Source: Rouxiella sp. S1S-2
GTDB taxonomy: Bacteria; Pseudomonadota; Gammaproteobacteria; Enterobacterales; Enterobacteriaceae
Assembly: GCF_009208105.1 (NCBI RefSeq)
Contig: NZ_WFKL01000001.1
Location: 1,798,001-1,862,000 of the forward strand
Length of the DNA: 64,000 nt
Direction: 5' to 3'
Shown here: piece after piece, positions 1,512 to 61,764 of the stretch
Position numbering within the stretch: the stretch's first letter is position 1
Layout of the letters: the number at the start of each line of letters is the position of its first letter
Made by a program: the position numbers and the translations under genes
The notes under the pieces: generated by a model
Database searches by the model: none
What the model was told of the DNA's origin: nothing
The model's input: the letters and a program-made list of their open reading frames with translations, nothing else

Positions 1512-2489
1512 TTATTGCCAAATTGGAGCAGTAGATGAATCATAAAATTCTATAACAATATTACGAGAGCTTAAAAATGCATTTGCATTAGCAATCGAGC
1601 GTAAGTTTGAGTGGGAATTCTCATCACCATAAATGCCAACAAAAATTTTCTCAACGTTACTTTCCTTAATTTTATCGAAAATATGCCTGTCATTTTCATC
1701 AATAGAGTGGCCATGGATAAAAAGATTACCGCTAAGCTTTTTTAAAGACAAATAACATGAATTTAAATAAGGGTTATGTTTTATTCGTTCGAGCTTTTTG
1801 TCAGCAGTTGGTTCTGAAACGAACAAAGGGAAGTTACCATTATTAAGATTTGTTCTTACTTGTTCAGAGATACTCTCATTTAAGTTACCATTGAAAGCTA
1901 TTTTATGAATAGATGTTCCGGTATCGTACAAATGAAGACCACCATGTAAAAAGAAGATGCTCTGTTCTTCACGAGCGATCCAAGTTGTACCCATAAAGCC
2001 ATCAGAATGGTTGTATCCTAATGGGTGTACTTCTGATTTGTTGATAATCCAATAAAGAAGAAGATCATAGTTTAAGGTAAATACTTTATCAAATTGTGAA
2101 ATAAAAGGCTTTGCTATAGAATATTGAGGGATAGATACTCTGCTAGATCTCGCTGGATGAGTATCTGAAATTACGTTAATTAACGAGTTTTTCAATTGAT
2201 TTTTATCTTGCTCAAACTCATCAACAAGGTTTAATTGAGGTCTGTAAATTTCACAAATACGTTTAGCGGAATCTAACGATAGCATTATTTTTTCAAAATC
2301 AAAAGTATCAAAAATACTGAAAATATGACGAATTGCAACATCACGTGGACCGAAGTTTGCTGAAGCTAACAGGTTTTTATAATTAAAAATAGCCGCATCC
2401 CACGATTGGGAAAAACCATTACCTAACAAGATTGATGGAACTGCACCCTCTAGTGAATCAATTTTTTGATCGAAACTTTCAAATGGCAT
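1512..2489 (-). CDS. DUF4917 family protein, SIR2-like; candidate phage-defence moron
   Basis: The protein has 325 residues. Three blocks match the SIR2-like nucleotide-binding fold as seen in DUF4917 proteins: ILLGNGFSQSWD near residue 20, VFTLNYDLLLYW near 135-146 and FFLHGGLHLYD near 180. A late LFIHGHSIDENDRHI block follows near 260. SIR2-like domains in bacteria often degrade NAD+ in abortive infection, but the catalytic role of this family is not established here. The gene is AT-rich, runs against all its neighbours and has its own promoter. It sits between the lysis cassette and the terminase genes, a common site for accessory lysogenic-conversion genes. No partner gene is adjacent. 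Confidence 0.85.
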   Translation of the reverse strand: MPFESFDQKIDSLEGAVPSILLGNGFSQSWDAAIFNYKNLLASANFGPRDVAIRHIFSIFDTFDFEKIMLSLDSAKRICEIYRPQLNLVDEFEQDKNQLKNSLINVISDTHPARSSRVSIPQYSIAKPFISQFDKVFTLNYDLLLYWIINKSEVHPLGYNHSDGFMGTTWIAREEQSIFFLHGGLHLYDTGTSIHKIAFNGNLNESISEQVRTNLNNGNFPLFVSEPTADKKLERIKHNPYLNSCYLSLKKLSGNLFIHGHSIDENDRHIFDKIKESNVEKIFVGIYGDENSHSNLRSIANANAFLSSRNIVIEFYDSSTAPIWQ

Positions 2490-12748: not shown

Positions 12749-14215
12749 ATGGCCGAATTACATGGCGTTGAAACCATTGAGATTATTGCAGGTACTGTGG
12801 CCGTTACTACCATTGCGACTGCAGTGATTGGATTGGTTGGCACCGCGCCTAAAGCGTCGAAAGGTACTCAGGCGACCGGTTCGTACAGTACGCCGCTGCT
12901 GCAAAATCAGCTCTTATTTAAGAGCAAGCAGCCAGGCCGATTACGTAATCAAATGCGGGTGGTGGCTATCGGCGCTAAACCGGATGCCAAAATTCCAGCG
13001 CCAGTACCCACCGTCGCGGCTTATAAAGATGCGACGCTTACTGTCACGCTGGGTTGCGACGCCACTGGAAAAATCACGGCCACCGCCGCGCAGGTTTTTA
13101 ATACCGTAAATGGGCTAGCTGTGAGTGAGATTTTAATGGAGAGGACGGCGGCGGCAGGCATTGTTATGCCTTTTGCCTTAACGCTCTCCGGCGGCGAAGA
13201 TGAGCCTTTCCCACTTAACAAACCGGTGGCGATTGTCGGCACAACGCAAATGAAAAAGCTGGGTGAGGCCGGTACGTTGCATCAGGCGTTGACGGATATT
13301 AATGACCAGCGTACGGCGCTCATCATTGTGGTTCGAGTCATTGAAGACGCCGATGTTGCCAAACAGCGCGCTGCATTGCTGGCGGGTATGCAAAGCTGGT
13401 CTAAGACCAAGGCTTTAACCGGTTATCAACCCCGCGTGCTGATAGCCACCGGTTTTAGTGAAGACGACGTCATCGGCAAGGGGCTGGAAACAGCGGCCAA
13501 CAAGCTGCGCGCCGTTGCTTACGTTGACTGTGCACCAATGGCCACTGCGGCCGAGGTGGCGCAGCGTCGGCAAACGTTCGGTGCGCGCGTTGAACTTTTG
13601 CGCTCCCGAGTGTGTATCGCTAACGCCGCCGGAGAGCTGGTTTACCTGCCGTACTCTGCCCGTGCCGCCGGGCTACGCGCCCGCATCGATATGGAACGCG
13701 GCTGGTGGTGGAGTAAGTCGAATCAAGACATTTATAATATTCTTGGCGTCGAGCAGGTCGATGAATTCATTCTCGGTGAGCCAAATTGCCAGGCGAATCT
13801 GCTCAACATGGAAAACATCAGCACCATTATTCGCCGCGACGGCTTTAAGCATTGGGGAAACCGGCTTTGTACCTCTAATCCGCAATGGCGTTTCGAGTCG
13901 GTACGCCGCACGGCAGACGTTATCGAAGACAGCATCCAGGAAACGGTGATGCTCTACAACGACCGGCCGCTTGATAAGCAAAACGCTGATGACATTGTCG
14001 GCACTATTAATGCCTATATACGTCAGCTGGTGGGGCTTAAGGCGATATTTGGCGGCAGAGCCTGGCCGGACGAGGAGTTGAACACCGCCGAGTCACTGGC
14101 ATCGGGCGTTATCTATATTAATTATGATTTCGGGCCAAAATCGCCCACCGAGCGCATCTCTTTGCGAGTGCGTGTGAATAATGATTACGCCCTGCTGGAG
14201 ATGGACACTCAATGA
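12749..14215 (+). CDS. contractile tail sheath protein, P2 gpFI-like
   Basis: The 488-residue protein starts at the ATG at 12749, preceded by a near-perfect AGGAGG site. The N-terminus (MAELHGVETIEI) and the late domain (KHWGNRLCTSNPQWRFESVRR split over residues about 370-400, then EDSIQETVMLYNDRPLDKQ) are typical of P2-family sheaths. It surrounds the tail tube and contracts to drive the tube through the envelope. An in-frame extension upstream to 12578 overlaps gpV and is not supported. Confidence 0.94.
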   Translation: MAELHGVETIEIIAGTVAVTTIATAVIGLVGTAPKASKGTQATGSYSTPLLQNQLLFKSKQPGRLRNQMRVVAIGAKPDAKIPAPVPTVAAYKDATLTVTLGCDATGKITATAAQVFNTVNGLAVSEILMERTAAAGIVMPFALTLSGGEDEPFPLNKPVAIVGTTQMKKLGEAGTLHQALTDINDQRTALIIVVRVIEDADVAKQRAALLAGMQSWSKTKALTGYQPRVLIATGFSEDDVIGKGLETAANKLRAVAYVDCAPMATAAEVAQRRQTFGARVELLRSRVCIANAAGELVYLPYSARAAGLRARIDMERGWWWSKSNQDIYNILGVEQVDEFILGEPNCQANLLNMENISTIIRRDGFKHWGNRLCTSNPQWRFESVRRTADVIEDSIQETVMLYNDRPLDKQNADDIVGTINAYIRQLVGLKAIFGGRAWPDEELNTAESLASGVIYINYDFGPKSPTERISLRVRVNNDYALLEMDTQ

Positions 14216-14715
14216 ATAAAAACACGCTTCGTGTCTGGACTTTCTTCACCCAGCGTGGCCGTGTTGCCGGTGCGCATGAATACACACCACCCGAACTGTC
14301 TATCTTAAAAACAGATATTCGCACCGGTGCACAGGACGCCCCAACGCCGCTGGACGACGGTATGGAAGCGCTGAATTGTCAGGTTAAGTTCTACGGTATA
14401 GATACCGACGTGCTGGCCAGCTTCGGGTTCATCAGCGGACGTCGGCCACGCTTCACCGCCTACGAGGGTTATCTCAGCAACGGACTGGCGCTGGGCACGA
14501 TGGAAGAGATCGAAGGCTTTGTGCAGAAGGTATCGCGGGATCCGCGCGGTAATCAGGGGATGTCAGAGAACGCGGTCACTGTCGATATCGCCATCAGCTA
14601 TTACAAGCAAAGCCTTGAAGGCGTAGAGCTGTTTGAGATAGACACCGAGCGGTTTATCCGCCGCGTTAACGGCGTGAATCAGCTCGGTGGATTGGCGGCC
14701 AAGGTACGACTTTAG
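14212..14715 (+). CDS. major tail tube protein, P2 gpFII-like
   Basis: A 167-residue protein with P2 tube features: NKNTLRVWTFFTQRGRVAG at the N-terminus, PLDDGMEALNCQVKFYGID in the middle, and a C-terminal NGVNQLGGLAAKVRL. It forms the rigid inner tube inside the sheath. The ATG overlaps the sheath stop (ATGA). The operon is interrupted right after this gene by a 2.6-kb accessory block before gene E. Confidence 0.94.
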   Translation: MNKNTLRVWTFFTQRGRVAGAHEYTPPELSILKTDIRTGAQDAPTPLDDGMEALNCQVKFYGIDTDVLASFGFISGRRPRFTAYEGYLSNGLALGTMEEIEGFVQKVSRDPRGNQGMSENAVTVDIAISYYKQSLEGVELFEIDTERFIRRVNGVNQLGGLAAKVRL

Positions 14716-14757
14716 CTAATGGGTTTGACCTGCTCCCCGTGATACTACACAACTTGA

Positions 14758-15027
14758 TTATTTACTCAGCCTAAAGTCTGGGCGGGCCTTTCTGTCCTTA
14801 AGTAAACCCTCGTTATCAAAATAGCGGCTGGGCCAAATCTCCGAGGGATGAACGTTCAGGCGGTTAGCGATCAGCCATTCGCCCTTGGGCCAAGGGCGAA
14901 TTAACGCATTAGCCAGAGTGGAAGAACTTAACCGATTTTGACGAGAAAGTGCTGCTAAGGTGGTGTTTGCTTTGTGCAGTGCTGCAATGATGTCGGCATG
15001 ATGCCAGTTGTCCCTTTCCATATTCAT
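14758..15027 (-). CDS. Ner/Nlp-type HTH transcription regulator
   Basis: An 89-residue protein resembling the Ner/SfsB (Nlp) group of phage Mu-type DNA-binding proteins. It has WHHADIIAALHKANTTLAAL with a helix-turn-helix, then LSSSTLANALIRPWPKGEW and NRLNVHPSEIWPSRY, the family signature. Ner represses early promoters in Mu. Here the gene runs opposite to the tail genes and is divergent from an XRE repressor-like gene, with operator-like repeats between them. Confidence 0.85.
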   Translation of the reverse strand: MNMERDNWHHADIIAALHKANTTLAALSRQNRLSSSTLANALIRPWPKGEWLIANRLNVHPSEIWPSRYFDNEGLLKDRKARPDFRLSK

Positions 15028-15074
15028 CCTTAAAAACTGTTAACGATACACGTCCAAGTAACTTCAAAGTTGTT

Positions 15075-15131
15075 AAATATCCTAATTTGGGATATTTGGC
15101 TTTATGGAAGATATTCGATTTTGGGATATTT
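15075..15131. promoter_or_regulatory. two operator-like repeats in the divergent regulator intergenic region
   Basis: TTTGGGATATTT occurs twice (15086-15097 and 15120-15131), 34 bp apart, which is about three helical turns. Each is paired with an inverted half-site upstream: AAATATCC at 15075-15082 (good match) and AAGATATTC at 15108-15116 (weaker). The sites lie between the divergent Ner-like and XRE genes, so one or both proteins are likely to bind here. Confidence 0.55.
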
Positions 15132-15151
15132 TTCAAAGGGAGATTACTTGT

Positions 15152-15403
15152 ATGGCATCCGTTTACGCAGAAGACTATCAATATGTGATCAGCATGCTGA
15201 AAAAGGCGCGTAAAGACAGAGGAATTACACAGGTTCAGCTATCGGAAGCGTTTGGTCGACCTCAGTCCTTCATCGCCAAGGTTGAGAACGGCGAGAGAAG
15301 ACTGGATATCGTGGAGTTTTTACATCTGTCTCGGTTATTGAACCTCGAGCCGAGCGCGGTAATAGATAAGATCTACCGCAAACGCGAACCGCTTAAACTG
15401 TAA
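15152..15403 (+). CDS. XRE-family HTH transcriptional regulator
   Basis: An 83-residue protein that is essentially one lambda-repressor-like helix-turn-helix domain (residues about 14-70): ITQVQLSEAFGRPQSFIAKV, then ENGERRLDIVEFLHLSRLL. The ATG at 15152 has AAAGGGAG upstream. A longer in-frame extension to 15104 would cover the second operator repeat and is less likely. It has no C-terminal cleavage domain, so it is not a LexA-type prophage repressor. It probably controls its own divergent region and the accessory block. Confidence 0.85.
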   Translation: MASVYAEDYQYVISMLKKARKDRGITQVQLSEAFGRPQSFIAKVENGERRLDIVEFLHLSRLLNLEPSAVIDKIYRKREPLKL

Positions 15404-15473
15404 AAGGGCGGGAAGGGCGCAATCTGCTGATGATGATTGGCTGATGCTAATCGATTAATTCTTTATGCTGACA

Positions 15474-15534
15474 GCGTCATCCGGGCCAGTCAAAACCCTG
15501 TATCTTGGCAGTACTTCGGGGGACTATTTGTCAT
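15474..15534 (-). pseudogene. decayed DUF1737 gene start (frameshifted and truncated)
   Basis: The minus strand from the ATG at 15534 reads like the start of the intact DUF1737 gene at 28478-28675. It has one C fewer in the C-run after codon 4, which shifts the frame, and the similarity stops abruptly at about 15474 (after GGATGACGC). Only the first 20 or so codons of the gene remain. Confidence 0.75.
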
Positions 15535-15602
15535 GGACGGCTTCCTTGAGATTGATGTGCTCAATTGCAGCTAAGATATACGACGAGTTGAAAGTAACGT
15601 CT
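15474..15602 (-). repeat. about 130-bp segment also present at 28614-28743
   Basis: This stretch and 28614-28743 align along their length in the same orientation with scattered substitutions. It spans the 3' end of one small gene and the 5' end of a DUF1737 gene. Shared landmarks are CTGTATCTTGGCAGT, ATTGATGTGCT and GAAAGTAACGTC. Confidence 0.85.
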
Positions 15603-15847
15603 TGATAGGTTACCGGGGTAATGCTGCCCGTCTTTATAAACCTCTTATGAAACTCCTCTAACTCAGTTTGACGCAATGGGCGCTTATTCCCTTTGGAGTT
15701 TAGGATAAACAGTCGGCCATCTTCACTGTAAACCTTGAAAGGCTTCTTGCGGGCAGCGGTGAATAGCTCTACCGGGTTAACAAAGAAAGCGGTCATCATG
15801 CTTAAAAATTTATCTGAAGACAAATCACTGATTAACTTCATAGCCAC
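15524..15847 (-). CDS. uncharacterised protein, first gene of a DUF1737-linked pair
   Basis: A 107-residue protein with no recognised family. The N-terminus (MKLISDLSSDKFLSMM) is followed by a short beta-rich middle (FKVYSEDGRLFILNSKGNKR) and a helical C-terminus (FNSSYILAAIEHINLKEA). The last 25 codons also survive, truncated, next to the intact DUF1737 gene at 28.7 kb. This shows that the two genes form a conserved pair that once existed at both places. The role is unknown. Confidence 0.65.
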   Translation of the reverse strand: MAMKLISDLSSDKFLSMMTAFFVNPVELFTAARKKPFKVYSEDGRLFILNSKGNKRPLRQTELEEFHKRFIKTGSITPVTYQDVTFNSSYILAAIEHINLKEAVHDK

Positions 15848-15925
15848 CTCTAAAAATAAAACTGTTTTAATATAATTCGTAGGCTATCTAAGCCTTTTAA
15901 CATTCTATTAGAGCTATCAGCCATG

Positions 15926-16621
15926 TTAATCTCTAACCATCGAAAGAGCCGCTTTAACGTATGTTTCGTCTGGTTTAAATCTCGACATGTGACGTAGGCA
16001 GATCACTGGGATTTTTTTTCCGTTGATCGTTGCAATAAACGCGAACGTGGTGTGATAGCCCCTTGGTTGGGAATACTTTAGGGTAGAAATATCGCCAAAA
16101 TGTTTAAGCAAGAGACTGGCCGCTGAGAGGGAGGCAAGGCTGTTGCTGTAAGCGACAATCACGTCAGGAGAGCATAAGGACAGGGTTATATGCTCAAAGA
16201 AACCCATCGAGTTTTTTACTATATCTGGAAGTGTTTGATTGAAGCATAAAGCCTCTTTCTTCAGGGATGCCGCATTGGTTGAGCACATCAATAGAGCATT
16301 GGTATAGATAACATCTTGCCAGTCATAGCCCAGCCAAAAGGGAATTTGCTGCAACCTGTTTGCAAGATGCTTAATCCCCCAAGCTCCCTCTGTACCGCAT
16401 TGTACATTTGAGACATGCGGTGATGCGTGATCATTAATAATAGACGTCGAATTTGTCATTTTTGAATCTACGGACGAGCCATTGAATCCCATAATGACCA
16501 GTCTTTTTCTCGCAGGCTCGGAAGCCAGAACTTGGAAGGCGGTATCGTAGGGGCGTCCAGGCAAATCACTCAAGTTAAATTGGGCGAGACCATCCAATAT
16601 AAAATTCTTTGTTTTATTCAT
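15926..16621 (-). CDS. uncharacterised accessory protein; weak uracil-DNA-glycosylase-superfamily pattern
   Basis: A 231-residue protein. The order of elements resembles the uracil-DNA glycosylase fold: a RLVIMGFNGSSV strand-loop near residue 40, DVIYTNALLMC near 103, a helix, SPDVIVAYSNSLASLSAASL near 155-175, and a late KKIPVICLRHMSRF near 205, where family members have a His-Pro-Ser loop. The match is by pattern only and key catalytic residues are not certain. It lies in the tail-operon accessory block, opposite to the tail genes, so a DNA-related defence or counter-defence role is conceivable. Confidence 0.55.
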   Translation of the reverse strand: MNKTKNFILDGLAQFNLSDLPGRPYDTAFQVLASEPARKRLVIMGFNGSSVDSKMTNSTSIINDHASPHVSNVQCGTEGAWGIKHLANRLQQIPFWLGYDWQDVIYTNALLMCSTNAASLKKEALCFNQTLPDIVKNSMGFFEHITLSLCSPDVIVAYSNSLASLSAASLLLKHFGDISTLKYSQPRGYHTTFAFIATINGKKIPVICLRHMSRFKPDETYVKAALSMVRD

Positions 16622-16706
16622 AAATACCCAGAGTAATTGTTGGACATTGATTTATTTTTAATTATGCATATTTATATTAACTGCAATTAGTCCTAAAACA
16701 ACTTAA

Positions 16707-16734
16707 TTGTTGAGTTATTGCACACTTATATAAA
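16707..16734 (+). promoter_or_regulatory. putative promoter of the C4/ash-like unit
   Basis: TTGTTG (16707-16712) and TATAAA (16729-16734) have 16-nt spacing. They lie in an AT-rich stretch upstream of the structured RNA and its small genes. It would let this unit be transcribed in the lysogen. Confidence 0.5.
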
Positions 16735-16799
16735 TGGGTTGCTGTATGATTATCGTACTGCGGCATATCCGCAGTCGGAATTAGCGTTTCGAAAACTTC

Positions 16800-16970
16800 T
16801 TGATACCTAGCTTGGCCTTAAGGACAGGGTTACTATAGGTATGGCCTGTTACACCCCAATGGTGGCTCAGGCGGGGGCTTCGAAAGAAGCGCCGGTTTCC
16901 AAGAGGTCCGGTAACGCTAACTCCGCCTGGGCTACCACCAAAGAGATTAGCGTCTCTGGTGGTAGCTATT
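16800..16970 (+). ncRNA. C4-type antisense RNA candidate
   Basis: The transcript can fold into a long arm (TGGTGG...GGCTCAGGCGG at 16860-16874 with CCGCC...GGGCT around 16923-16932). This arm encloses GCTTC-GAAA-GAAGC (16877-16890) and a CCGG...CCGG hairpin (16892-16911). A terminal hairpin, CTACCACC...GGTGGTAG, lies at 16932-16965. The ACCACC segment (16934-16939) can pair with its own hairpin, with the 5' arm, or with the ribosome-binding regions of the two downstream small genes (GGTGG at 16987, GGTGGT at 17055). This matches how C4 RNAs of P1/P7 act, and the RNA overlaps an ash-like reading frame as in those elements. The exact ends are uncertain. Confidence 0.65.
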
Positions 16971-16972
16971 AA
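16841..16972 (+). CDS. Ash/Icd-like small protein overlapping the C4-type RNA
   Basis: A 43-residue frame. The stretch MVAQAGASKEAPVSKRSGNA, followed by NSAWATT, is the conserved N-terminal pattern of Ash / host-cell-division-inhibitor Icd-like proteins of P4- and P1-type elements. In those elements this coding sequence coincides with the C4/CI antisense RNA, so conservation may reflect RNA rather than protein. Here the frame stops after 43 codons and lacks the long C-terminal part of P1 Icd. No clear ribosome-binding site precedes the ATG at 16841, and 16859 is an alternative start. Confidence 0.45.
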   Translation: MACYTPMVAQAGASKEAPVSKRSGNANSAWATTKEISVSGGSY

Positions 16973-16995
16973 ACAATCCTTTTGGAGGTGGCTTC

Positions 16996-17073
16996 ATGGC
17001 TATCACACTTTTTTATCTATACCCACCATTTATTCGTACACATCCAGCCATTTGGGTGGTGCATTATGATTGA
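16996..17073 (+). CDS. 25-residue leader-like peptide downstream of the C4-type RNA
   Basis: The frame encodes MAITLFYLYPPFIRTHPAIW plus five residues. It has an excellent GGAGGT ribosome-binding site, 7 nt before the ATG. Its stop overlaps the next start (TATGATTGA), so translation of the next gene is probably coupled to it. The GGTGG in its ribosome-binding region is complementary to the C4-type RNA. It probably serves as the regulated entry point for ribosomes, like the target site of C4 in P1. Confidence 0.45.
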   Translation: MAITLFYLYPPFIRTHPAIWVVHYD

Positions 17074-17281
17074 TGCAACCCCGCTGACCGTTGAAGAAAT
17101 CCTCGAACAATGCCAATCCTTATCTCAAGCGATTATTGAAGTCACACATCCCAGGACGAGAGAATCACTGATATTTATTTTGTCTGAAAAAATCGATGAC
17201 TTAACTTGTTTGATGAGTGAAGAAGACATCTTAGACAAAACCCGGAGACAAGTTCTGATGGTTGAAGATATTAGTGTTTAA
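17067..17281 (+). CDS. uncharacterised acidic protein, end gene of the C4-regulated unit
   Basis: A 71-residue, acidic, all-helical protein (TPLTVEEILEQCQSLSQAI, SLIFILSEKIDDLTCLMSEE). The ATG at 17067 overlaps the stop of the preceding 25-codon frame, and the GGTGGT before it can pair with the antisense RNA. No family is recognised. By position it corresponds to the gene that C4 silences in P1 (the antirepressor), but it is far smaller than P1 Ant. Confidence 0.55.
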
Positions 17282-17400
17282 CTGCTATTAGCAGCTTATC
17301 TTAATTTAATTATATTCAAACTGACTAAATTAAAAGCATTATTTCAACACGCTAGGCTCACAAGCCCTGACGTTTATTGATTATCACAGCGATTTAATTT

Positions 17401-17424
17401 ACGGCCCTTATGGGCCGTTTTTTT
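17401..17424 (+). terminator. intrinsic terminator closing the accessory block, before gene E
   Basis: CGGCCC-TTAT-GGGCCG is followed by seven T. It separates the accessory block from the tail gene E, whose GGAGG site and ATG follow 14 nt later. The tail operon must read through it. Confidence 0.85.
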
Positions 17425-17437
17425 ATGGAGGAACATC

Positions 17438-17737
17438 ATGAATTATCCCGGCAGTTTGGAAACTATCACGCTTTATAGCCCTTTAACGCTCGAGAACGGC
17501 AGCGAGCTTAAGACGGTCACCATGCGTGAGCCGTTAGTGCGTGACCGGCTGGTTTATGCAAAAGATCGCGGCACTGAAGAGGCAAGAGAGGCGCGCATGC
17601 TGGCGTTGTTGTGCGGTATCAATGATAACGATATGGAGTCGCTCACGGCGGCCGACATGATCCAGCTGCAGGACACCTTCAATAATTTTATGTTACCGCC
17701 CGCCAAACGTCCGAAGCCGAAATCCAGCGATGTTTAA
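17438..17737 (+). CDS. tail assembly chaperone, P2 gpE-like
   Basis: A 99-residue protein with phage tail-assembly E-family features: a Leu/Thr-rich start (ETITLYSPLTLENGSELKTV), an MREPLVRDRLVYAKDRG segment, and a LLCGINDNDMESLTAADMIQ helix. It sits directly before the tape measure gene, where chaperones that guide tube assembly on the tape measure are encoded. The -1 frame is open past its stop and leads into the E' frame, as expected for programmed frameshifting. Confidence 0.85.
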   Translation: MNYPGSLETITLYSPLTLENGSELKTVTMREPLVRDRLVYAKDRGTEEAREARMLALLCGINDNDMESLTAADMIQLQDTFNNFMLPPAKRPKPKSSDV

Positions 17738-36969: not shown

Positions 36970-38159
36970 AAATTGAGACGCGATATTTCTGGAGGATTAG
37001 AAATTAGCGTCTGAGTTTTTCGGATGAGACATTTTATCAATTAGAAACAGCACAATAAAACCTCCCTTGTTAATATCTTGTTAAGATAAACCCGCTAAAT
37101 TGTCTGTGCCAAACAAAAAATGTCAGTTCCGCTATACAGAACAATCACTCGTTAAATCTCATTAATCGAATGTCGGCCAGAGATAATTTGATTTTTAGCC
37201 TATATGGCAGATGTTTTGACCAAGGTTTGCGTATCCCTCTGCTGTAGCCTCCTTGCCAGACGGCATTGGTACTGGTTTGCAATGCGCTTACTGATGTGTC
37301 ACGGGGCAAATGCCTCTCGACCAACGGGGTAAAAAGCCGGTTGTGGAAATATTAAATAATAAAAATGCTAACTGGTTCACGGTTATTCTAAATTTGATTA
37401 TTGAATATGCTTTGCCATGTTTTGAATATATTGTTTGAATTTTACACATTCCGTTTAATATAAATTTCATCAAATTGTAAAATCATTGCTGTAGGGCAAT
37501 TTTTTACTGTCATCTTTTATAAAAACGGGGCTTGAAGCGGGGGAGGCGGTGAACTTCCTTATGACTCAGAACTTTATTTATATGTTTCAAAACCCGCACG
37601 CTTAAGGTGCAGTGGAATACGGGTTGATAGGACGTTTGCACCAGAGTAGTACCATTATGTCTGTATTGGTTACTGCATAATCAATCAATTTAGTCATTGA
37701 GGCAGATCAACTTTCGTACTGATGGCCTGCTTTCCTGTCAGTAGTGGGTTGGGGGAAAAATGACGCCTGGTAAACCTCAAGAACCCTGCTATGACTGCCT
37801 GAGTTGGTCCAAGAGACCGATTCTGTATTAGCAGCAGATACACTGAAACGCTTGCGTATTCGTGATTTCTGTTATATCAAATACAATAATAATTCAATTA
37901 AAGCTGATTTTAACTCTTACTGTTCGGCGTTTATTGATCAATAATCAGCGGTGAACGGTTATTGATTTGTTTGTGAGGCCCTGTTTTCTTCTGTGCAAAA
38001 AATAGCAGGGCTACCAACCTATTTTCGTCTGCATTGGCAGTAAGTGCCTTTAACCGGCTCAAATATGTGCGACAGGTCCATCACTGATTAAAAATGGCTT
38101 GCCATTAAATTCAGAGTATGTGATAACGCATCTGGGTAAAACGAGGTACAGTTCTGTAT
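36970..38159. other. 1.19-kb gene-free region upstream of yobF-cspC
   Basis: No gene-like frame is seen. The stretch is AT-rich with many short hairpins, for example GCCCTG...CAGGGC (37978-38012) and GGTGCA...TGCACC (about 37598-37650). It precedes the yobF-cspC operon, so it may contain its promoter and a long leader. A small RNA cannot be excluded, but none is recognised. Confidence 0.5.
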
Positions 38160-38276
38160 ATGTGTGGCATTTTCAGTAAAGAAGTTTTGAGTAAAGACGT
38201 TATCGTTGAATACCGCTTCTCTGCCGATTTTTATCTTAGTGCCTCAAGCAGTAACGACTCAAGTTTGTCTGTGTAA
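38160..38276 (+). CDS. yobF: YobF small protein
   Basis: A 38-residue protein. [20 protein letters not shown] followed by SADFY aligns with the first half of E. coli YobF ([20 protein letters not shown]). The C-terminus is Ser-rich and differs. In E. coli yobF is a heat- and stress-induced small protein co-transcribed with cspC, and here cspC starts 41 nt downstream. Confidence 0.92.
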
Positions 38277-38317
38277 CGCCGCAGGGCGGTTTAAACAATC
38301 CAAAGGAAATACTCAAA

Positions 38318-38527
38318 ATGGCAAAGATCAAAGGTCAAGTTAAGTGGTTCAACGAGTCTAAAGGCTTCGGTTTCATCACTCCAGCTGACGGCAGCAAAGA
38401 CGTGTTCGTACACTTCTCTGCAATCCAGGGTAACGGCTTCAAAACTCTGGCTGAAGGCCAGAACGTTGAGTTCGAAATCCAAGATGGCCAGAAAGGCCCA
38501 TCTGCAGTTAACGTAACTGCAATCTAA
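38318..38527 (+). CDS. cspC: cold-shock-like protein CspC
   Basis: A 69-residue protein nearly identical to E. coli CspC. The RNA-binding motifs KGFGFITP (RNP1) and DVFVHFSAI (RNP2) are intact. CspC is constitutive and, as an RNA chaperone, stabilises stress mRNAs such as rpoS and acts as a transcription antiterminator. It is in an operon with yobF and followed by a strong terminator. Confidence 0.97.
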
Positions 38528-38541
38528 GCAGCGTTAGCTGT

Positions 38542-38572
38542 AAAAAAAACCCGCCTTGGTGCGGGTTTTTTG
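38542..38572 (+). terminator. cspC terminator
   Basis: AAAAAACCCGC-CTTGGT-GCGGGTTTTTT is a symmetric hairpin with A and T runs on both sides. Confidence 0.9.
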
Positions 38573-38606
38573 TTTTTGTACTTTTAAGTGATTTTAAGCC
38601 CCTCTC

Positions 38607-51179: not shown

Positions 51180-51269
51180 AGCGGGATACCTAACTCGTTG
51201 TCAGTGATGATGATAGATTTGTTGCGGTTAATAACCTTATTTCCGGCGATCCCGGATCTGTTTCGGCGC

Positions 51270-51308
51270 ATTATATAGGAAAATCCTGTGCTACGAAAAC
51301 GTTTGCGT
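51270..51308 (-). promoter_or_regulatory. purT promoter with a PurR operator
   Basis: ACGAAAACGTTTGCGT at 51293-51308 is the reverse complement of the PurR consensus ACGCAAACGTTTTCGT. A TATAAT -10 (minus strand, 51275-51270) lies 17 nt downstream of its edge, so PurR with hypoxanthine or guanine would cover the -35 region and repress purT. Confidence 0.9.
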
Positions 51309-51405
51309 TGTTTCGTCACGATTTGCGTGCAGGCGCTGAATATGCGTTAATAGTTGGGCATCCGCGATCGAGGCGGCTGCTTTTTTTAAAGTAAAGGATA
51401 GTAAA

Positions 51406-51615
51406 ATGAGCAAGTTAACTGGTCAGGTAAAATGGTTCAACGAAAGCAAAGGTTTTGGTTTCATCACCCCTGCTGATGGTTCTAAAGACGTTTTCGTACA
51501 TTTTTCTGCAATTCATAGCGATGGTTTCAAAACTCTGGCTGAAGGTCAGAACGTAGAATTCACCATTCAAGACAGCCCACGTGGCCCGTCTGCTGCCAAC
51601 GTCGTCGCGCTGTAA
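51406..51615 (+). CDS. cold-shock-like protein, CspE/CspC type
   Basis: A 69-residue cold-shock domain protein with intact KGFGFITP and DVFVHFSAI motifs. It differs from CspC of this window mainly in HSDGFKTL and in the C-terminal [17 protein letters not shown]. It is an RNA/ssDNA chaperone. The exact orthology (CspE or a lineage-specific paralogue) is not resolved. The leader is short and lacks the long cold-box UTR of cspA, so cold induction is doubtful. Confidence 0.92.
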
Positions 51616-51685
51616 TCAGTTTTCTGACTTTCCAGGTCAGGCCGCCAAGGTTTTTGGCAACTGAAAATACAAGATAACGTTATTC

Positions 51686-61366: not shown

Positions 61367-61545
61367 TTTTGGACGACCCAGAGGCTGACCCGTCGGCCTC
61401 TGAAAACTCCCTAAACAACGCCCTCAGGGGCTCACACCGGCAATGTTAATATTATGTTTTGCGAATGTTGTCACAAAACGTTATTAATTCCGCAAAGTTA
61501 TTATCACCACGCGTCAAACTTGCTGGTAAAGCATCCATCCTCGGC

Positions 61546-61551
61546 TACGCT
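61546..61551 (+). promoter_or_regulatory. sdsR -10 element (sigma-S type)
   Basis: GGCTACGCTTTAAG, with TACGCT at 61546-61551, fits the CTAYRCT-type extended -10 used by sigma-S. The RNA start follows 8 nt after the hexamer. SdsR is one of the most sigma-S-dependent sRNAs. Confidence 0.75.
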
Positions 61552-61558
61552 TTAAGTT

Positions 61559-61662
61559 GTAAGGCTTAACCGCCTGCATCAATGCCAACTTTTAGCGCAC
61601 GGCTCTCTCCCAAGAGCCATTTCCCTAGACCGAATATAGGAATCGTATTCGGTCTTTTTTTT
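61559..61662 (+). ncRNA. sdsR: small regulatory RNA SdsR (RyeB)
   Basis: The central and 3' parts match enterobacterial SdsR almost base for base: AATGCCAACTTTTAGCGCAC, then GGCTCTCTCCCAAGAGCC and the terminator GACCGAAT-ATAGG-AATCGTATTCGGTC with a T-run. The length is 104 nt, as in E. coli. SdsR is an Hfq-binding, stationary-phase sRNA that represses targets including ompD-type porins and mutS. It follows yebY as in E. coli, and the antisense RNA RyeA may be encoded on the other strand. Confidence 0.96.
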
Positions 61663-61764
61663 ACTTACTGATTTTAAAGTGTTTTATTCTTTAAGCTCGA
61701 AATTTCCACGAAATATCATATCCGGTCTTTAAAGAATCACGTATTCCTTCCCTCGAGTATCCAG

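Follow-up and report, generated by a model that had tools for sequence, protein, structure and literature searches.

The prophage and its tail-operon insert

The window (the whole stretch of 64,000 nt analysed in this study) belongs to Rouxiella sp. S1S-2, whose genome comprises 5.36 Mb in two contigs. Its first 25 kb form a prophage that combines a lambda-type head (terminase GpA, lambda portal and a ClpP-capsid fusion, besides a phage lysozyme) with a P2-type contractile tail (base V, sheath, GPD, tube FII and TAC E). Between the tail tube gene and gene E we found a C4-type RNA followed by two small overlapping genes, which confirmed the placement given in a preliminary description of this DNA. 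The features of the locus are listed in Table 1.

Table 1. Features of the tail-operon insert and its C4 unit (window positions; energies in kcal/mol)
Feature	Position	Strand	Basis or remark
Tail tube FII	14212-14715
Insert (cargo) between FII and E	14716-17400	.	compact FII-E spacing elsewhere
Ner-like gene in insert	14758-15027	-
HTH gene in insert	15104-15403	+
Insert ORF, 107 aa	15524-15847	-	without Pfam or NCBIfam match
Insert ORF, 231 aa	15926-16621	-	without Pfam or NCBIfam match
c4-a1b1-like element (RF03163)	16744-16795	+	24.6 bits, below cut-off of 46.7
Possible -10 element TATGAT	16745-16750	+	by eye in relatives
isrK-like match (RF01394)	16757-16801	+	22.8 bits, below cut-off of 50; overlaps c4-a1b1-like element
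Site a1	16776-16786	+	pairs with a' at 10 of 11 positions
Site b1	16796-16802	+	pairs with b'; weak in window, -12.5 own vs -12.0 others
Ash-like frame, 43 aa	16841-16972	+	mostly on C4 RNA; PF10554 match
C4 antisense RNA	16855-16942	+	Rfam RF01695; own model R1, 92.9 bits
b', loop of hairpin 2	16896-16906	+	11 pairs with b2, -13.8
a', internal C4 segment	16915-16925	+	-11.6 with a2, -10.1 with a1
Alternative hairpin, C4 3' strand with GGTGGTAGC, a2 in loop	16931-16966	+	-18.5; minimum-energy fold
Site a2 (TTAGCG)	16947-16952	+	pairs with a'
Site b2	16978-16988	+	includes Shine-Dalgarno GGAGG of leader ORF
Icd-like leader ORF, 25 codons	16996-17073	+	position, start site and overlap shared with relatives
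71-aa protein, phrog_16030, presumed payload	17066-17281	+	profile match; leaderless relatives
Terminator-like hairpin before gene E	17401-17418	+	similar hairpins at other FII-E junctions, by eye
Tail gene E	17438-17737

A search for gene E in 382 family genomes yielded 14 places in 13 genomes, the window being one of them. In ten of the 13 other E loci FII and E are separated by 41-86 nt, and in one locus (L105) by about 0.9 kb; in two (L101, L102) FII was not found within the 1.5 kb examined beside E. Since FII and E nearly adjoin in most of the other loci, we regard the stretch from 14716 to about 17400 as an insert. Among the five of its proteins that were scanned with PADLOC, the HTH gene product alone matched models. 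The 231-aa ORF had no match in PHROG or in phage records, and the best phage-side match of the 107-aa ORF in the same searches reached an E value of only 0.072. The idea of a satellite embedded in its helper, taken from part of PMC10111431, was dropped, as no integrase match occurred among the insert proteins scanned. By eye, a hairpin with a T run precedes E in seven of the ten compact FII-E junctions (L093-L099); together with the hairpin of the window, these place a terminator-like structure of P2-type tails amid late genes. Elsewhere in the prophage, between the lysis and terminase genes, a DUF4917 protein (1512-2489, minus strand) matched the PADLOC candidate defence system PDC-S21 with 384.8 bits.

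The preliminary description considered this setting unusual. It is modestly so, and less singular than supposed, as a C4 unit also precedes the tail sheath gene in 14 of 24 viral-contig loci (L058-L081; tblastn), all 14 with the C4 upstream of the family gene. Sheath and tube were confirmed by a scan of one representative (L075), and in a further locus (L078) the C4 unit follows genes for P2-type gpI, a tail fibre and fibre assembly. A same-genus genome (G115) carries a copy of the C4 unit behind an FII ORF that lacks its beginning, with other genes in between.

The C4 RNA and its pairing contacts

A multi-branched RNA with a GAAA-capped hairpin had been described upstream of the small genes, and a covariance search with the Rfam C4 model had been suggested. 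This search, run over the whole window, identified the RNA as C4 (RF01695) with 73.2 bits against a cut-off of 45 and an E value of 2.3e-12. The C4 RNAs of P1, P4, N15 and Gifsy-1 all matched the same model above the cut-off (4/4). In an alignment of 18 C4s, which was drawn from Rfam matches and is therefore biased toward the structure, 98.1% of the cells in the three-stem structure were paired. Compensatory change was found as well: 11 of the 27 pairs had changed on both sides, with 43 such cells compared with 13.0 in shuffles. The computed fold of 16745-17010 had an energy of -113.8 kcal/mol (z -6.9; no shuffle was as good), and in this minimum-energy fold a' and b' are bound in cis by a1 and b1, respectively, and the 3' hairpin is formed as well. 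The C4 RNA and the run-on RNA thus appear to be alternative folds. Pairing of the C4 3' strand with GGTGGTAGC averaged -14.3 kcal/mol with the own partner and -12.3 when partners were swapped (0 of 20,000 permutations as good), the value of the window being -18.5.

Other elements of the 5' region were less clear. A promoter-like element had been proposed, which we regard as weak: a consensus promoter scan listed none at the 5' region of the unit, and the -10-like TATGAT was recognised by eye, several relatives having TATAGT, TATACT or TATAAT in its place. The upstream element stayed below the cut-offs of both c4-a1b1 and isrK, and we do not file it under either family, although it probably works in a similar way. 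The proposed ash/Icd-like frame on the RNA has to be divided in two. The frame over the RNA is Ash-like, with a match to Phage_ASH (PF10554; 50.6 bits, cut-off 26) over positions 46-85 of the 107 of the profile. The likeness to Icd belongs to the leader ORF farther downstream.

The naming of a', b' and their sites follows sections of PMC5320573. As is typical for C4, a' and b' have complementary sites both at the ribosome-binding site of the downstream ORF and farther upstream. Partner specificity was analysed in related leaders. Our own C4 model found 75 copies in 84 sources, of which 38 leaders were kept after leaving out those at least 92% alike or with less than 70 nt downstream. Mean pairing energies with the own target were compared with those for the targets of other leaders in 20,000 partner permutations. 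The b' loop paired with the Shine-Dalgarno region of the leader (b2) at -16.1 kcal/mol compared with -11.2 for others, and a' with the site just downstream (a2) at -10.5 compared with -7.3. For the upstream sites the values were -12.1 and -9.3 (a' with a1) and -15.2 and -13.7 (b' with b1). None of the 20,000 permutations was as good for any of these four contacts; b1 was the weakest of them, with an own mean of -15.21 and a best permutation of -15.17. The permutations ignore kinship among the 38 leaders, yet mismatched control pairings, which share this kinship, stayed flat (12,645 and 6,139 of 20,000).

The own target was the best or tied-best in 12, 6, 8 and 4 of the 38 leaders for b2, a2, a1 and b1, respectively, and the own partner of the window ranked behind 6, 6, 8 and 10 others for the four contacts. 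These ranks are modest because addresses are shared or similar among leaders. The 38 leaders contained 30 loop strings and 11 segment strings, one of the latter possibly counted twice through an alignment shift (CTGTCAA, TGTCAAC). Both halves vary separately, as eight segments occur with several loops and four loops with several segments. In the same-genus copy loop and target differ jointly (loop CCAAGAGG and target CCTTTTGG vs CCAAGGGG and CCCCTTGG). Similar results were obtained for a second set of C4s from eight genomes (44 of the 52 listed, eight having no locus), in which the loop paired at -16.2 with its own target compared with -12.8 in other genomes, and the segment at -9.6 compared with -7.0. 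A sharper separation of addresses within one genome was considered and rejected: mean energies were -25.9 for own, -20.1 for same-genome and -19.8 for other-genome partners, and good cross-pairing was seen in 61 of 266 combinations within and 297 of 1626 between genomes. The partner-specific contacts are b' with b2 and a' with a1 and a2, all outside the ACCACC motif. The RNA most likely recognises its target by an address of two parts, which varies between copies.

The leader ORF and the phrog_16030 family

The two overlapping small genes of the preliminary description exist, as a leader ORF of 25 codons and an ORF for a 71-aa protein that overlap by 8 nt. The same arrangement was computed for relatives: of 29 with both a C4 and a family gene, the window not counted, 27 have a leader ORF of 19-66 codons whose overlap with the next start is 1-11 nt. 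In the remaining L004 and L031 no leader ORF is present and the C4 faces the start of the family gene itself, for which reason the phrog_16030 protein looks like the payload. The leader of the window is short compared with the 65-66 codons of full forms; short leaders are common in relatives and keep their pairing intact.

A homology search, as had been suggested, assigned the 71-aa protein to phrog_16030 (E 3.8e-7, residues 1-49), and all 23 of its aligned relatives matched this profile as well. It had no PADLOC match and is thus not assigned to a known defence system; no similarity to a known toxin was found in Pfam or NCBIfam. The protein is predicted to form a two-helix hairpin (mean pLDDT 82). 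An attempt to name it by fold failed, as the best Foldseek E value was 1.3 and none was at or below 0.001, and P4 epsilon was discarded as a homologue since there was no detectable sequence similarity.

Relatives of phrog_16030 were found in 52 of the 392 genomes searched, our own included, with up to nine matches per genome. Two small Pectobacterium plasmids carry them too, whereas tblastn with two queries found none in 50,697 records of isolated phages. Besides 47 viral-contig loci, we collected 49 loci in named genomes, mostly of Pectobacterium and Brenneria and also of Dickeya, Serratia, Rahnella, Samsonia, Edaphovirga and Candidatus Symbiopectobacterium. Of 83 family copies, 59 had a C4 at most 500 nt upstream and 24 had none; one of the latter (L003) is a circular record that wraps round and would be one more with a C4. 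L002 and L005 (the window) were excluded from the survey of neighbouring genes, which leaves the window outside the 83 copies. In the named-genome draw the C4 was present in 15 of the 49 loci and missing in 34. As many copies have no C4, the family protein does not need it. In 24 of 78 loci the 3.5 kb behind the family gene contain a primase-like gene, and the one representative checked had primase zinc and Toprim domains. A sheath gene was found downstream in 13 loci by ORF clustering.

Several C4-less copies of leader and phrog_16030 gene (L015, L023, L025, L160) have a different 5' region, with symR-like antisense matches upstream that score 34.6-38.3 bits and do not reach the cut-off of 61; in one set of C4-less loci one of seven showed such a match. 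One genome (G022) held 16 C4 matches, 14 of them over the cut-off, and another (G304) C4-like RNAs with no evident downstream target or leader (L137, L140, L143, L145). The Rouxiella genome itself contains a second C4 (L001, L091; G000:C1:4513340-4513427) with an address unlike that of the window; the element around it carries an AlpA gene and, as judged by eye, a primase of P4 type.

A probable C4 switch as tail-operon cargo

The unit contains a C4 RNA of a known family in a modestly unusual setting, with a payload from an uncharacterised family. We consider it likely that the unit is cargo of the prophage tail operon and acts as a C4 antisense-RNA switch, which keeps the 71-aa protein off by way of the leader ORF. 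The leader transcript would start near 16755-16760 and would either fold and be cut into the C4 RNA or form the alternative hairpin and run on. Cutting by RNase P is assumed here by analogy with P1/P7, for which sections of PMC5320573 and PMC12197685 describe C4 processing and silencing, the former including RNase P processing and blocking of the ribosome site. The processed RNA would use b' to pair with the Shine-Dalgarno sequence of the leader (b2) and a' to pair with a2, which lies shortly before it, so that translation of the leader would stop and with it synthesis of the 71-aa protein, the latter because the two ORFs overlap by 8 nt. The upstream sites a1 and b1 could hold a' and b' in cis. 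According to part of PMC4825925, the upstream RNA IsrK of Gifsy-1 activates rather than silences, and the role of a1 and b1 may therefore differ from this scheme. Since the address formed by a' and b' differs between elements, silencing by a resident C4 would mostly be confined to elements whose address matches.

For the 71-aa protein our best guess is an anti-repressor or trigger role, judged from its position, as its gene occupies the place of P4 epsilon and Gifsy-1 AnrP. The Ant protein of P1 occupies the same operon position. That the protein is indeed an anti-repressor we consider somewhat less likely than not.

The preliminary description had also proposed that C4 acts as a switch on a small overlapping gene, with the ACCACC segment pairing with both ribosome-binding regions. 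A missing C4 covariance match together with a lack of compensatory changes in relatives would have refuted this proposal; here the match and such changes were both found. The C4 identity and the switch are supported by our analysis, whereas targeting by ACCACC may occur in the window but found no support in relatives, and it is highly improbable that this segment is the main silencer. GGTGG at 16987 and GGTGGT at 17055 lie where they had been located, and pairing is strong in the window, with -14.2 kcal/mol at the ribosome-binding region of the leader, more than with other leaders (mean -9.55), and -12.2 at that of the 71-aa gene. No partner-specific signal was detected in relatives, however: own and swapped pairings averaged -7.98 and -8.01 at the leader site (10,505 of 20,000 permutations as good; 38 leaders) and -8.98 and -8.65 at the family-gene site (2,030 of 20,000; 29 leaders, window excluded). 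GGTGG near the leader start occurred in one of 38 leaders, namely the window itself, and GGTGGT near the family-gene start in none of 29. Moreover, the second site of the window is generic, as the ACCACC segments of the 29 other leaders pair with it equally well (mean -12.1). The segment is required for the C4 stem and also takes part in the alternative hairpin just downstream.

Other readings give the same parts a different use. If the 71-aa protein harmed the cell as a toxin or in abortive infection, the C4 would be its RNA antitoxin. The number of family copies in a single genome, the cargo site, the toxin-antitoxin genes that adjoin some loci (RelE, MqsA/HTH) and the symR-like matches upstream of C4-less copies would fit such a function; we regard it as unlikely, given that these matches are all sub-threshold and infrequent and that the protein resembled nothing in PADLOC and no known toxin in Pfam or NCBIfam. 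It is less likely still that the prophage C4 is directed, in trans, chiefly at P4-like satellites that would exploit the prophage and whose C4-type operons it would silence. C4 does control P4, primase-like genes follow the family gene in 24 of the 78 loci, and the genome holds an AlpA-bearing element with a C4 of its own. Yet the address of this resident element is a different one (TTCCTAC, CCATAGTT), short-leader cassettes such as L017, L134 and L032 make up most of the best cross-targets of the window C4 among 82 leaders (their contexts examined in part), and C4s within one genome are no less cross-reactive than those between genomes. Equally improbable is a relic, in which the C4 persists but regulation has been lost with the shortening of the leader and the drift of the sites. 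The leader length, the partial Ash frame and the sub-threshold a1b1 match point in this direction; against it, the window pairs still fit their own partners, with 11 pairs at b2, the same-genus copy changed loop and target together, and relatives with short leaders retain their pairing.

The proposed C4 switch, which would guard the 71-aa protein, can be compared with several known systems. It shares with C4 of P1/P7 (icd-ant) the RNA fold, the a'/b' contacts, two sets of target sites and a leader overlapping the next gene, and differs in its payload (phrog_16030 instead of Ant), in a leader cut to 25 codons and in the tail-cargo site. The CI RNA immunity system of P4 (seqA, seqB, seqC) belongs to the same Rfam model, and its epsilon gene, annotated as encoding a helper derepression protein, overlaps the preceding CDS by 8 nt as the 71-aa ORF does. 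In contrast, P4 works by transcription termination, as stated in part of PMC4825925, and epsilon is unrelated in sequence. The isrK-orf45-anrP region of Gifsy-1 also has a C4 match and a short ORF coupled to the next gene; sections of PMC4825925 describe orf45 and anrP as coupled, with anrP overlapping orf45. It differs from our locus in the activating IsrK, the window's isrK match being below the cut-off, and in AnrP, which is another protein. Small variable cargo between two conserved phage genes recalls the defence hotspot of P2-like phages, which lies between genes A and Q according to part of PMC9122126, compared with FII and E here. A literature search by titles and abstract openings, in which the name phrog_16030 was not a query term, returned nothing on phrog_16030 or on tail-operon C4 units.

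So far C4-type control has been described with few known payloads, and our comparison links it to an uncharacterised family of small proteins. If the silencing is real, the unit makes it possible to test directly how RNA-based immunity distinguishes between many resident elements and what the guarded protein does. As a more speculative extension, to which we give little probability, C4, leader and phrog_16030 gene might form a portable self/non-self cassette of prophage tails, P4-like satellites and small plasmids. Its address halves would be exchanged independently, a resident copy would silence only like-addressed newcomers, and the protein made by a foreign copy would attack a resident repressor or the cell. 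Elsewhere in the window, two cspA thermoregulator elements and an SdsR/SraC pair were noted (38143-38574, 51238-51666 and 61520-61665).
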